A DNA stretch of 64,000 bases from Paracoccus sp. SCSIO 75233 (lineage in GTDB: Bacteria > Pseudomonadota > Alphaproteobacteria > Rhodobacterales > Rhodobacteraceae): positions 1,612,001-1,676,000 of the forward strand of contig NZ_CP115757.1 of the NCBI RefSeq assembly GCF_027912675.1, in the 5' to 3' direction. Positions within the stretch are counted from its first letter, which is position 1; each line of letters opens with the position of its first letter. Of the stretch, positions 21,968-25,862 are shown piece after piece. The position numbers were made by a program, and so were the translations under genes. The notes beneath the pieces are model-generated. The model was not told the DNA's origin. It worked only from the letters and a program-made list of their open reading frames with translations, and ran no database searches.

Positions 21968-22573
21968 ATGACCGCACCGATCCGCAAACGCTCGCGCCAC
22001 GTCGCCCTGTTTCTGGCCGGAACCGCCGTGATGGGGCTGGCGGCGTGTGAGGAGGAAAAGACCGACGCCGCCGCCTTCCCCGATCTGCAAAGCTGCATTG
22101 CCGAGGCCGAGAAAGGCTCGCTGTTCTTCACCGCCGAGGATTGCGAAACCCAGTTCGCCGAAGCCCAGCAGACCCATCTGGAGACCGCGCCCCGCTACGA
22201 TTCCAAGGAGCTTTGCGAACAGGAGCACGGGGCCGGCAATTGCGAAACCGATCCGGCGGCGCAGAATCAGTCCGGCGGCGGCTCGATCTTCATGCCGCTG
22301 TTCATGGGCTATATGCTCGGCTCGATGCTGGGCGGCGGTCGCGGCGTGACCTCTCAACCGATGGTGCGCACGGCGTCGGGCAATTATGCGACCCCGGACG
22401 GCAAGCAGAGCTTCGCGACGAATCGCGGCACCGGCCGGGTCTCCAGCTCCGCCTTCACCAAGGCCCCGACCACAATGGGCAAGGCACCGATGACCCCCGC
22501 ACAGGTCAGCCAGCGTGGCGGCTTCGGCGCATCCTCCACCTCGCGCGGCGGCGCGGCGCGCAGTGGTGGCTGA
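21968..22573 (+). CDS. DUF1190 lipoprotein (YgiB-like)
   Basis: Predicted lipoprotein of 201 residues. A basic start and hydrophobic stretch end in the lipobox GLAAC with C27. The DUF1190 core shows paired cysteines in DLQSCIAEAEKG, FFTAEDCETQFAEAQ, SKELCEQEHGAGNCE, then a Gly/Ser-rich half with a short hydrophobic GSIFMPLFMGYMLGSMLGGG and a disordered tail ending in Gly-rich repeats. It is 2 bases behind the YgiC-like gene, so the two form an operon. Function unknown; the conserved pairing suggests an envelope process with the ligase-like protein. Confidence 0.88.
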   Translation: MTAPIRKRSRHVALFLAGTAVMGLAACEEEKTDAAAFPDLQSCIAEAEKGSLFFTAEDCETQFAEAQQTHLETAPRYDSKELCEQEHGAGNCETDPAAQNQSGGGSIFMPLFMGYMLGSMLGGGRGVTSQPMVRTASGNYATPDGKQSFATNRGTGRVSSSAFTKAPTTMGKAPMTPAQVSQRGGFGASSTSRGGAARSGG

Positions 22574-22813
22574 ACACCGCATCATGCCGGCTATCATCAG
22601 TCAGATATTTCTGGCTTTCCGTCAAATTTCTGAGCCAATGTCAATGCAGACTTTCGATCGCGGTGCGGCGAAGGCCGGGTTTGAGCCCTTAGCAACTGAT
22701 GCTGCAATGTGTATGAATGTCCGGGTTCACGGCTTTGGGCGCAAGTAACATACAAGGGCTTATGCGCCCATGCTCACGATATGAACCGATAAGGCTCTCT
22801 ATGTAAGCCTTGC
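22574..22813. other. Non-coding left flank of the AT-rich cassette
   Basis: 240 bases without a supported gene. A weak hairpin (AAGGCT at 22791-22796 with AGCCTT at 22806-22811) lies just downstream of the cassette's last stop but lacks a U-run. Confidence 0.5.
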
Positions 22814-23509
22814 CTAGATCAACTTGAATTGCCCAACGTCACTCACTCCATCGCGCAAAGAATTGAAATCAACTGACCTACCACCACATTGTCCAGGCAA
22901 ATACTGCTCTATTTCATATCGATCAGCAGCCAAAGCATCCTTGGAACCAACAAATCCATGGGAATGGGAAAGCCAGCGCAGTGTGATGAGGTCCGATGTT
23001 TTGAGTACGCGCAACGCCTCGCCAGACCCATACGCACCAATTCTGTACTTTCCGCCATCGGCCTCGAAAACCTTATTTATTTCAGAGAAGTAGCCAACTA
23101 CCTCCTTGGTATAAAATTTAATTCCAGGAATTGATCCGACAAAGTCACCATCCACACCGAAATAAATCGCGCTACCGCTTGGTTGGCGCAGTTCAGTGGC
23201 CATTTTCAAGGCCCGTTCAGCGTCATTTAGACCTCGATTTTTCCAGTCTTCGAAGGTTTCTGATTTATTGTTGTTATGCTGAAAAACAACTAAAATAGAC
23301 ATTCCAGCTTTAGAAATTATTGGTATTTCATATTCTCTAAGGCGCTTTCCCGGCAATGTTTCATTTTCGTAATCATAGTAGCGGGCAACAATGGAAACGC
23401 CGACGTCTTTCATGTGGTCAACAAAGGAATCTGTAGCCTGAAAGGATGTATCGACCATCTGTACGCCACTAGCGATACGACAGTAATCTTTCGATTTTTT
23501 GGCGGCCAT
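22814..23509 (-). CDS. DUF1906 (Rv2525c-like) glycoside-hydrolase-like protein
   Basis: Predicted TIM-barrel protein of 231 residues of the DUF1906 group, which is related to GH25 lysozymes and found in peptidoglycan-acting proteins and phage lysins. Typical features are the start GVQMVDTSFQATDSFVDHMKDVGVSIVARYYDY, the strand SGSAIYFGVDGDF, an EINKVF helix, KYRIGAYGSGEALRVL, and a final YEIEQYLPGQCGG...VDFNSLRDG where this family ends with D-x-N. No signal peptide or membrane segment is present. Base composition is very different from the rest of the window (23281-23340 has 15 G+C of 60). It lies 6 bases after the M15 peptidase gene and is surely co-transcribed. Hydrolase activity is inferred only. 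Confidence 0.85.
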   Translation of the reverse strand: MAAKKSKDYCRIASGVQMVDTSFQATDSFVDHMKDVGVSIVARYYDYENETLPGKRLREYEIPIISKAGMSILVVFQHNNNKSETFEDWKNRGLNDAERALKMATELRQPSGSAIYFGVDGDFVGSIPGIKFYTKEVVGYFSEINKVFEADGGKYRIGAYGSGEALRVLKTSDLITLRWLSHSHGFVGSKDALAADRYEIEQYLPGQCGGRSVDFNSLRDGVSDVGQFKLI

Positions 23510-23515
23510 GGTACT

Positions 23516-24187
23516 CTATGAAGTTAAAGGTGAGCGCTCAGAAGATTTACCAAATTTTTCAACCATTAGGTTGTTAATTTGCTTTGCGGAATACATCTTG
23601 CCTGGCGACGAAGGCCCGGCGGCTTGGATGTGGCCACAGTCTTTGAATGACCAGAAATACCCTGAGGTCAGACCGAGATCGCGCGCGGTTTCCGCATAGA
23701 CCTTGTAGTGCGGATCACATGACCATGCGGCTGCTCCACCAACTGATCTATAGACGTCAACCGCGTTTCCATATTGATGCCAGCTATACCCAGGAAGGGC
23801 GTTTGTGACCCTTTGGTCTGGCCCCTGCGGGCCGACATCCCGAAGAACAGCAGCTAGAAAATCCGCCCCTTGAGATTTCAGTTTTGCTATTGCTTCGTTG
23901 ACAACAGTTGTAGATCTCGATTGGCGCCAAAGTCTAGCTTGCTCCCATGGATCGCGAAGGCCAAAATAGGGCACCATTAAATATCCCTGCTCTTCACAAA
24001 TGCCGAGAACTTTTTGAACCTTATCAGCAAAGTCCTTCTCTAGATCACCAAAACTAAAACGAAGCCCAAAGCGCGCCGTTTTATTTATTGAGAACGAGTT
24101 TTCATCGAGCGGGACATCAAACAGGCCATCATCGTCGTCGGAGTTGGTCAACGCTTCAAATTCGGTTTCAAATTCTTCAAGTGACAT
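23516..24187 (-). CDS. M15-family peptidase (D-Ala-D-Ala carboxypeptidase / L-Ala-D-Glu endopeptidase type)
   Basis: Predicted zinc peptidase of 223 residues acting on peptidoglycan peptides. The VanY/endolysin motifs are complete: GLRDPWEQARLW (R78), SWHQYGNAVDV with zinc ligands H137 and D144, and GHIQ with H186. A 45-residue acidic N-terminal segment (FETEFEALTNSDDDDGLFDVP) precedes the domain and there is no signal peptide. AAGGGG lies 8 bases before the ATG at 24187; the frame is open to 24250. Like its partner it is AT-rich and rich in rare codons for this genome, so recent acquisition is likely. No immunity-like gene is visible beside it. Confidence 0.88.
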   Translation of the reverse strand: MSLEEFETEFEALTNSDDDDGLFDVPLDENSFSINKTARFGLRFSFGDLEKDFADKVQKVLGICEEQGYLMVPYFGLRDPWEQARLWRQSRSTTVVNEAIAKLKSQGADFLAAVLRDVGPQGPDQRVTNALPGYSWHQYGNAVDVYRSVGGAAAWSCDPHYKVYAETARDLGLTSGYFWSFKDCGHIQAAGPSSPGKMYSAKQINNLMVEKFGKSSERSPLTS

Positions 24188-24600
24188 GAAGTTCACCCCT
24201 TCACTTAACCTTACCCAAGAAATGATACCACATGCTGTCCGATGAGTCACTTCGGATGCTCAGGGGTTGTGAGGGAAGGAAGCATCGAAATTTTACCCCT
24301 GTTTTTTGACCTCGTTGGCCCCATGTGTACCATATGAACGACCGTTCACACCGGACACAGTGCGACTGGTGCACAAGTCATGAGCTTTGGGCCTTATTCA
24401 GAAGCTCAAGAAACCAGACTGTGTAAATGGCGCACAGATCCGGTGCGGGGTTCGGCAGCTTCGCAGCCCCTTGTTTGAGCAGACCTTGGATCGTCGTCAC
24501 CGAACGGCAGCTTCGTCCCGCTTACCAGCTCCCTTGAGGGGCCGGTGTCTAAGGTCCGGTTTGGGAAAGAGCTGCATGACGTTCCGCACAGGCGGGAAAC
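24188..24600. other. Non-coding right flank of the AT-rich cassette
   Basis: About 410 bases with no supported gene. It should carry the cassette promoter at its left end. A short inverted repeat GAACG-AC-CGTTC stands near 24334. The right part returns to high GC. No integrase, IS end or direct repeat matching the left flank was found. Confidence 0.5.
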
Positions 24601-24629
24601 GAAAAACGGCGCCCGAGAGGGCGCCGTTC
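24601..24629 (-). terminator. acpP terminator
   Basis: A perfect 10-bp stem (24605-24614 with 24619-24628) with loop GAGA, then U-rich tail on the minus strand. It is 27 bases after the acpP stop. Confidence 0.9.
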
Positions 24630-24655
24630 AGCATTCCATCATCAATCGGACCGGA

Positions 24656-24889
24656 TCAGACCGCGCCCTTGATGAAGTTCACAGCATCACCGAAAGTCTG
24701 GATGGTTTCGGCTGCGTCATCCGGGATCTCGATGCCGAATTCTTCTTCGAATGCCATGACCAGCTCAACGGTGTCGAGGCTGTCTGCACCCAGATCGTCG
24801 ATGAACGAAGCGGATTCGACCACCTTGTCCTCTTCAACGCCGAGATGCTCGACAACGATTTTTTTCACGCGATCAGCAATATCGCTCAT
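24656..24889 (-). CDS. acpP: Acyl carrier protein
   Basis: Carrier of growing acyl chains in fatty-acid synthesis, 77 residues and strongly acidic. The phosphopantetheine site is S37 in [21 protein letters not shown], and the [20 protein letters not shown] helix is canonical. It has its own promoter (24974-25001) and terminator and is separated from fabG by a terminator and 235 bases, which fits the much higher expression ACP needs. The Kdo and lipid enzymes in this window depend on it indirectly. Confidence 0.98.
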
Positions 24890-24973
24890 GTTTTTCCCTC
24901 ATGTTCGCGGGCACATGCCCAAGGTTAGCGGCCATGCCGCGATGCCGGGGTAATCCCCTTTGCGTCAATCCCG

Positions 24974-25001
24974 CATATAGCAGCGGAATGGCCCCATGCA
25001 A
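24974..25001 (-). promoter_or_regulatory. acpP promoter
   Basis: Minus strand TTGCAT (25001-24996), 16 bases, TATATG (24979-24974); the predicted start near 24967 leaves a leader of about 78 bases. Confidence 0.55.
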
Positions 25002-25092
25002 CCGCTTTCGCCGGAAAATCATGGCTGACAGGCGGCAAATCGCGGTCGGTTCCGCTCTGCAAACCCTGCGCCAGACCCCGCCGAAAGCGAGT

Positions 25093-25117
25093 AAAACCGG
25101 GCGTTTCAGCCGCCCGG
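25093..25117 (-). terminator. fabG terminator
   Basis: CCGGGCG/CGCCCGG stem (25097-25103 with 25111-25117), 7-base loop, UUUU on the minus strand, 8 bases after the fabG stop. It insulates fabD-racemase-fabG from acpP. Confidence 0.8.
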
Positions 25118-25124
25118 ACGCCCG

Positions 25125-25862
25125 TCAGACCATTGCCATGCCGCCATTGACATGCAGCGTTGCGCCGGTGACGTAGCCCGCCTCTGCACTGGCGAGATAA
25201 AGTGCCGCAGAGGCAATATCTTCGGGCTTACCCATGCTGCCCGCCGGGATCTGGGCCAGAATCTTGCCCTTCTGATCGTCGTTCAGCTTGTCGGTCATCG
25301 CCGTGGCGATAAAGCCCGGTGCGATGCAGTTCACGGTGATATTGCGGCTCGCGACCTCATAGGCCAGCGATTTCGACATGCCGACCAGACCGGCCTTTGC
25401 AGCGGCATAGTTGCCCTGCCCCGGATTGCCCGTGGTCCCGACGACGGAGGTGATGTTCACGATCCGGCCCCAGCGGGATTTCATCATCCCCCGCAGCACC
25501 GCGCGGCAGAGGCGGAAGCTGGAGGTCAGGTTGACATCGATCACCTGCGCCCATTCCTCGTCCGACATGCGCATGAAGATATTGTCGCGGGTAATGCCAG
25601 CGTTGTTGACCAGAATATCCACCCCGCCCATTGCCTCGGCAGCGGCTTTGGGCAGCGCCTCGACCGCCTCGGCATCGCCCAGATTGGCGGTCACGACATG
25701 CGCCCGCTCGCCCAGCTTTCCCGCCAGATCGTTCAGCGGCGCCTCTCGCGTGCCTGACAAGGCGACCGTCGCCCCGGCGGCATGCAGCGCCTCGGCAACC
25801 GCGCCGCCAATGCCGCCCGACGCGCCGGTGATCAGGGCGCGTTTTCCTGTCAGATCAAACAT
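25125..25862 (-). CDS. fabG: 3-oxoacyl-[acyl-carrier-protein] reductase
   Basis: NADPH-dependent reductase of the second step of the fatty-acid elongation cycle, 245 residues. Rossmann motif TGASGGIGGAV, NNAG at 86-89, and catalytic S139, Y152, K156 (SVVGTTGNPGQGNYAAAKAG) match FabG, as does the C-terminal GYVTGATLHVNGGM. It overlaps the 3' end of the racemase-like gene by 8 bases and belongs to the fabD-racemase-fabG transcript. The open frame extends further upstream, but the family begins at MFDLTGK. Confidence 0.97.
   Translation of the reverse strand: MFDLTGKRALITGASGGIGGAVAEALHAAGATVALSGTREAPLNDLAGKLGERAHVVTANLGDAEAVEALPKAAAEAMGGVDILVNNAGITRDNIFMRMSDEEWAQVIDVNLTSSFRLCRAVLRGMMKSRWGRIVNITSVVGTTGNPGQGNYAAAKAGLVGMSKSLAYEVASRNITVNCIAPGFIATAMTDKLNDDQKGKILAQIPAGSMGKPEDIASAALYLASAEAGYVTGATLHVNGGMAMV

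Follow-up and report, generated by a model that had tools for sequence, protein, structure and literature searches.

A leaderless M15 peptidase–DUF1906 gene pair in an AT-rich islet of Paracoccus sp. SCSIO 75233: a candidate endolysin-like module in two parts

The window analysed here is a stretch of 64,000 nucleotides from Paracoccus sp. SCSIO 75233, whose genome measures 3.89 Mb; the stretch belongs to its 3.27 Mb contig. An initial annotation of its sequence had pointed to two adjacent genes of wall-hydrolase families, and profile searches confirmed both: the product of one matches DUF1906 (PF08924, E 5.2e-23, 82.6 bits against a cut-off of 27.2) and that of the other VanY (PF02557, E 8.6e-8, 32.5 bits against a curated cut-off of 25). 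The two ORFs are separated, as first described, by 6 bases (23510–23515). To the left of the islet that holds them lie a glutathionylspermidine synthase-type gene and a DUF1190 gene, and to the right acpP. The features, in window coordinates, are:

21968..22573, plus strand: DUF1190 gene, left flank, outside the islet (profile and comparison with congeners)
22574..~24598, no strand: inserted AT-rich islet of about 2.02 kb, G+C 0.485 (comparison with congeners)
22814..23509, minus strand: DUF1906 gene (Rv2525c-like, PF08924), TIM-barrel glycoside-hydrolase-type, 231 aa, leaderless (profile, model and alignment)
23510..23518, minus strand: M15/DUF1906 junction of TAG, two sense codons and ATG (sequence)
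23516..24187, minus strand: M15/VanY-type (LAS) zinc peptidase gene, 223 aa, leaderless (profile, model and motif alignment)
24222..24250, minus strand: weak promoter-like site GTGACT-17-TATCAT with TG, just upstream of the M15 gene (sequence)
24604..24629, minus strand: acpP intrinsic terminator, intact, at the right edge of the islet (congener comparison and terminator scan)
24656..24889, minus strand: acpP, acyl carrier protein, right flank, outside the islet (profile and comparison with congeners)

The sharp shift in base composition reported at first sight holds at several scales. The 60-mer at 23281–23340 contains 15 G+C, and equally low 60-mers make up 8 of the 63,941 in the window; G+C in the 1374-bp two-gene stretch is 0.463, where the window averages 0.628 (sd 0.034), with 29 of 62,627 same-length stretches falling below it, the lowest of which overlaps it; and GC3 is 0.43–0.45 in the two genes versus 0.64–0.83 in seven measured neighbour genes. 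When the DNA of the region was searched against 101 genus genomes, its own included, DUF1190 and acpP were found adjacent in at least 10 congeners among the matches listed, and far apart in several others. The gap between them is 31–195 bp in six of those 10 and is filled with 0.76–3.67 kb of other, GC-rich DNA in the remaining four; the islet is absent from the site in all 10. Relative to the compact sites, the extra DNA amounts to about 2.02 kb; it starts at the DUF1190 stop (22573) and ends shortly ahead of the acpP terminator, a wider span than the 22814..24187 originally delimited. Because the flanks lie so close together in six of the 10 congeners, the islet is most simply explained as a gain by insertion, and its AT-rich composition makes a recent acquisition likely. 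No second copy of the islet DNA or of the M15 N-terminus was found elsewhere in the genome, and the islet DNA gave no match to plasmids.

An insertion hotspot was rejected as a description of the site: the other cargos of the gap (G422, G436, G472 and G426) are GC-rich, ordinary-looking genes, and the DUF1190–acpP interval is taken as a permissive convergent gap and nothing more. In the four congeners with other genes there (L120, L121, L123 and L124), a related-looking membrane protein is seen by eye in three, together with an Lrp-type regulator in two. Downstream of acpP, G469 carries a gene resembling, by eye, an RTX/serralysin-type secreted metalloprotease (L128:6788-8524). A flanking direct repeat (22767/24320, 16 of 20 positions) was discarded as an insertion mark, being near chance and reached in 1 of 30 shuffles.

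Ten further islet ORFs of 31–188 aa were compared with PHROG and Pfam at E 0.1, a screen that genes of unknown family or shorter than 30 aa would escape, and none matched; in agreement with the initial annotation, which had seen no holin, immunity gene or integrase, none of these was recognised among them, nor was a spanin, a regulator or a phage structural gene. The islet accordingly shows neither the holin or spanin beside an endolysin that makes a phage lysis cassette (a holin of unknown family is possible) nor the partner holin within the operon that marks ChiWXYZ-like type 10 secretion. The integrase or structural genes, att repeats and tRNA site of a prophage are likewise absent; no tRNA genes were found in the 64-kb window, and an Rfam scan of 22000–25200 matched no RNA element. 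A role in anti-phage defence was rejected, neither of the two proteins matching a family of PADLOC-DB. Elsewhere in the genome, about 1 Mb away, lies a member of DUF2460, which we take to be a gene-transfer-agent family (G000:C1:633204-633821; of 14 control genomes, Caulobacter matched). According to excerpts of a study on Rhodobacter capsulatus, such particles leave the cell by a regulated lysis, with an endolysin under induction by GafA (PMC6363796). Together, the DUF2460 gene and this mode of release suggest that a holin may exist elsewhere in the genome.

The M15 protein, whose score against Peptidase_M15_4 (21.7) is below the cut-off of 25, matches PHROG endolysin families, as does the DUF1906 protein; both stay below the cut-off of every NCBIfam model. 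Its AlphaFold model, built with 12 sequences (pLDDT 83), consists of an N-terminal helix (residues 3–14), a disordered acidic linker (16–41) and a catalytic domain with a well-modelled peptidase core. The best solved matches of this model are Ply500 and LysB4 (Foldseek E 4e-7 and 4e-6; 26% and 25% identity), which rank ahead of VanY-type carboxypeptidases; the model covers the best of them only partly (TM 0.47 by query). ChiX of Serratia (5opz) is also matched. Residues H137, D144, D183 and H186 align with the zinc-ligand and catalytic H...D / D..H motif common to Ply500 and LysB4, and the predicted cut site is the L-Ala-D-Glu bond of the stem peptide. Unlike these two enzymes, the window protein has no visible wall-binding partner domain, carrying the N-terminal helix and acidic linker instead, and lies outside any recognised phage genome.

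Relatives of the M15 protein, at 26–48% identity, occur in both phage and cellular contigs. Among the former, a terminase gene lies nearby in one (L035) and a tail-fibre gene adjoins in another (L039); the latter comprise a Photobacterium plasmid, a Bacteroidales MAG, another bacterial MAG, Desulfogranum and a gammaproteobacterial MAG (partial). On the Photobacterium plasmid (L014:5269-6576) the M15 gene, 45% identical, sits after a DNA-invertase-type recombinase. A hydrophobic leader is missing from the window protein, and a signal-peptide-like start was found in none of 12 aligned relatives (the top 12-residue mean, 1.8 in L041, lies inside the domain); the window protein extends beyond each of the 12 on either side, the starts of L032, L036, L037 and L039 having been set by eye. 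The protein is rare around its host, with matches in 2 of 394 family genomes (its own and a weak one) and in 7 of 398 phylum genomes, the other six being weak, short-stretch matches. In a tree of 13 rows it pairs weakly with phage contig L035 (88/82). Single-sequence searches returned no close viral relatives and none among genome contigs; phage records hold one distant M15 protein, of Bacillus phage Moonbeam (31%, two records). Among five small or membrane-type proteins beside the viral M15 relatives, PHROGs names no holin or spanin.

The DUF1906 protein was modelled with 15 sequences (pLDDT 91) as a TIM barrel for which chains of Rv2525c rank 1–4 among solved structures (TM 0.71 by query, E 5e-11), with the acidic residues aligned. 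The seven residues that never vary in a 55-row alignment (D20, Y44, P110, D120, Y160, Q202 and D214) are all present. Catalytic or invariant residues align in both proteins, a point on which the initial annotation could have failed. For cleavage of the wall by the DUF1906 domain, a prediction here, the source is a title on Rv2525c structural studies in a reference list. DUF1906 was found in 12 of 394 family, 3 of 101 genus and 3 of 385 class genomes, the own genome counted each time, and the other two genus members are different proteins of 39% and 37% identity. No close viral relatives were detected by single sequences or by the window/G346 pair; phage records contain one distant DUF1906 endolysin, of an Alicyclobacillus phage (26%), and excerpts of a phage lytic protein table list DUF1906 in 30 of its entries (PMC8310338).

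A tree of 25 DUF1906 domains joins the window protein with G346 (59% identity; 100/99) and then with G342 (40%; 95/95), so that this half groups with secreted cellular proteins: both branch mates carry Sec-type leaders, with hydrophobic maxima of 2.3 and 2.5 versus 0.8 in the window protein. As the initial annotation remarked, neither protein of the pair has a signal peptide. The window protein starts where the mature part of G346 starts, and in frame before its ATG there are two codons and then a stop, with no hydrophobic leader. Since both closest relatives have one, the leader was probably lost on the window lineage; its place in front of DUF1906 is occupied by the M15 gene. A cysteine near the N-terminus (C10) and one near residue 208 (C208) are common to the window protein, G346 and G342 and may form a disulfide. 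Several further DUF1906 genes were seen in passing. Two are apparently broken, one into two overlapping frames (G304, L029:8668-9800) and one by an internal stop (G421, L142:188-511). On Sinorhizobium/Mesorhizobium plasmids, solitary DUF1906 genes without an obvious leader occur in similar gene order (L015:4878-5627 and L016:4851-5612), the Mesorhizobium one adjoining a gene that bears a type III secretion annotation.

At the junction, the M15 stop TAG is followed by AGT ACC and then by the DUF1906 ATG, both ORFs thus lying in one frame, for which the chance is 1 in 3. By eye, a fair ribosome-binding site (GAAGGGGTGA) precedes the M15 start at 24187, with a longer GTG start possible at 24250, and none that is strong precedes the DUF1906 ATG. 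The M15 tail, a low-confidence part of the model, overhangs all 12 aligned relatives. The one frame, the overhanging tail, the missing leader and the weak second ribosome-binding site point to a two-domain lysin in two pieces, and suggest that translation of DUF1906 is coupled to that of M15. The pair probably needs its own promoter, as the acpP terminator is intact; promoter-like sites such as that at 24222..24250 are no commoner than chance in the region.

Does the pairing recur? A profile search of loci found M15 and DUF1906 together in none of 82 places outside the window; in this sample, then, the co-occurrence in other genomes that the initial annotation proposed to look for is absent. 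Of these places, 78 comprise 18 with M15 and 60 with DUF1906, several of them viral and near-identical, with unequal flanks and some cut by contig ends; the other four are G437, G421, G501 and G659, G501 and G659 having 1.5 kb flanks and G421 lying at a contig end. The M15 profile used was built from two sequences, so M15 proteins of other branches could escape it, and the weak M15 places L132–L138 were left out. Within proteins, a scan covered 55 DUF1906 sequences, that of the window among them (of 65; left out were seven near-duplicates, the cut copy L050 and the broken copies G304 and G421), and found no VanY/M15 domain; CHAP was present in four and glucosaminidase in four. Four other alphaproteobacteria encode leaderless DUF1906-SH3-CHAP fusions (G215, G437, which is a congener, G501 and G659); SH3 does not reach its cut-off in two of them (G501 and G659), and for G215 and G501 the start is probably internal to the longest frame. 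These proteins resemble the window pair in being leaderless and in joining a glycan-side to a peptide-side domain, with 33–39% identity over the matched DUF1906 part, but they are single polypeptides with CHAP rather than M15, with DUF1906 at the N-terminus and in another part of the DUF1906 tree. Phage contig L047, Mu-like by gene reading, also carries a leaderless DUF1906 gene, at a distance of about 1.6 kb from the genes for the small and large terminase subunits and the portal protein. The glycan-plus-peptide pairing therefore recurs and, over the 82 places, the exact M15/DUF1906 pair does not. The parts are known and the combination is new to the searches made here; searches of an open-access literature library listed no report of the pair, and DUF1906 and endolysin do co-occur in papers.

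The surroundings of the fusion genes share features of their own. In G437 (L126:5655-12584) the gene before DUF1906-SH3-CHAP matches winged-helix and TPR domains weakly, and after the fusion gene come membrane-type, secreted-type and PAP2 genes of the same direction; relatives of the winged-helix/TPR gene lie beside or near DUF1906 in G421 (L142) and G215 (L021), and a relative of the PAP2 gene is present in G215. This neighbourhood is possibly a conserved locus.

The best-supported comparison for a mode of action is with endolysins and ChiX. Excerpts of the work on ChiX (PMC5778951) describe a leaderless L-Ala-D-Glu endopeptidase that reportedly depends on its holin for entry into the periplasm; its zinc is bound by His68, Asp75 and His123, and its activity requires Asp120. 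The window M15 protein shares with it the LAS fold, the chromosomal setting, the missing leader and the zinc His/Asp/His set, in which a critical Asp precedes the last His by three residues; in contrast, the four-gene ChiX operon includes a partner holin, and none was recognised in the islet. Rv2525c differs from the window DUF1906 protein in being Tat-exported, as judged from PDB names; an export signal is common in this family, though some members do without one. The islet pair seems to unite known parts in a rare way and not to form a new system.

We read the pair as an orphan endolysin-like two-part module that acts only after a breach of the inner membrane, a reading to which we give an even chance. 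The islet would be a recently acquired lysin in two parts, probably co-transcribed. Its first gene would encode a Ply500-like M15 endopeptidase and its second an Rv2525c-type glycosidase-like protein whose ancestral signal peptide gave way to the M15 gene; both proteins would stay in the cytoplasm and be harmless there. A breach by a phage or gene-transfer-agent holin, or cell death, might then let the enzymes reach the wall, and its cutting on the peptide and glycan sides would help lysis or release. The Ply500/LysB4 fold, the PHROG endolysin families, the relatives on phage contigs (L035, L039 and L047), the compact congener site, the Rv2525c fold of DUF1906 and its Sec-leadered branch mates, the leaderless fusions, the one frame, the M15 tail and the ChiX precedent argue for it. 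Against it stand the want of a recognised holin, spanin or regulator in the islet, the frame that chance would give once in three, the partial cover of the best solved match by the M15 model, the slender source for wall cleavage by DUF1906, and M15 relatives that are also cellular and away from recognised phage genes; and the absence of the pair from the 82 other places gives no sign of selection for it as such. The earlier idea of a captured phage lysin split in two survives in part: the one frame, with TAG and two codons between the halves, and the fused, leaderless DUF1906-SH3-CHAP counterpart favour a split, while a phage origin suits the M15 half, whose relatives are part phage and part cellular, and not the DUF1906 half with its secreted cellular kin. 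A more specific form, which we hold improbable, is that a single two-domain gene, M15-linker-DUF1906, arose by fusion of a leaderless phage-type endopeptidase before a formerly secreted glycosidase-like domain, and that an amber codon in the linker now yields, through reinitiation, mainly two enzymes and perhaps small amounts of the full-length protein, awaiting in the cytoplasm the holin of a phage or gene transfer agent.

Second to the orphan-module reading, and possible if rather unlikely, is a passive relic of chance-acquired mobile or phage-derived DNA, functionless and decaying, in which both ORFs are still open by chance. The scatter of DUF1906 over three genus genomes with dissimilar proteins, the lack of paired conservation, the likely recent arrival indicated by AT-richness and the stop codon between the halves of one frame would suit such a remnant; both ORFs are, however, full length with conserved residues, and a plausible ribosome-binding site precedes M15. 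More doubtful than the split-gene form is a contact-dependent or diffusible antibacterial effector pair directed at rivals. Excerpts of an analysis of lipocone proteins (PMC12419801) describe putative actinobacterial (Actinomycetota) conflict systems with an Rv2525c-like barrel and VanY in one gene neighbourhood, TelC proteins with such a barrel, and also toxins without leader or immunity gene, these last with another domain; those systems have a TelC domain and a secreted peptidase, whereas the window pair has no TelC domain, no leader and no recognised immunity gene. A search of the genome for VipB, the sheath protein of the T6SS, came back empty (E. coli, of 14 control genomes, matched). 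With no immunity gene recognised in the islet, this speaks against a T6SS effector–immunity pair, and with the pair's absence from all 82 places it tells against the effector module with its own export route that was initially entertained. Still less probable is cytoplasmic salvage of muropeptides, both enzymes working inside the cell on recycled wall fragments: leaderless solitary M15 relatives do occur in cellular contigs L031–L033, by eye with no phage genes recognised beside them and in L033 with a transposase-like gene upstream, but the closest kin of the DUF1906 protein are secreted and share with it a cysteine pair that would fit an oxidising compartment, and no recycling genes were recognised nearby. 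Least probable of all is an accessory lysin of a resident gene transfer agent, for which DUF2460 and the GafA-induced endolysin of Rhodobacter speak, since the DUF2460 marker is so distant and at least 10 congeners with adjacent flanks carry no pair there.

Beyond the initial annotation, the analysis adds the islet of about 2.02 kb, the single frame, the position of M15 where a leader would stand and the recurring pairing of leaderless DUF1906 with a peptide-side domain. As a single occurrence the islet answers no long-standing question, and the leaderless DUF1906-SH3-CHAP proteins are flagged here as a class in alphaproteobacterial chromosomes. If the orphan endolysin-like reading is true, the islet would be a natural example of a secreted bacterial wall enzyme becoming a phage-type lysin, in which a lysin gene replaces the signal peptide, export then becoming the task of a holin.
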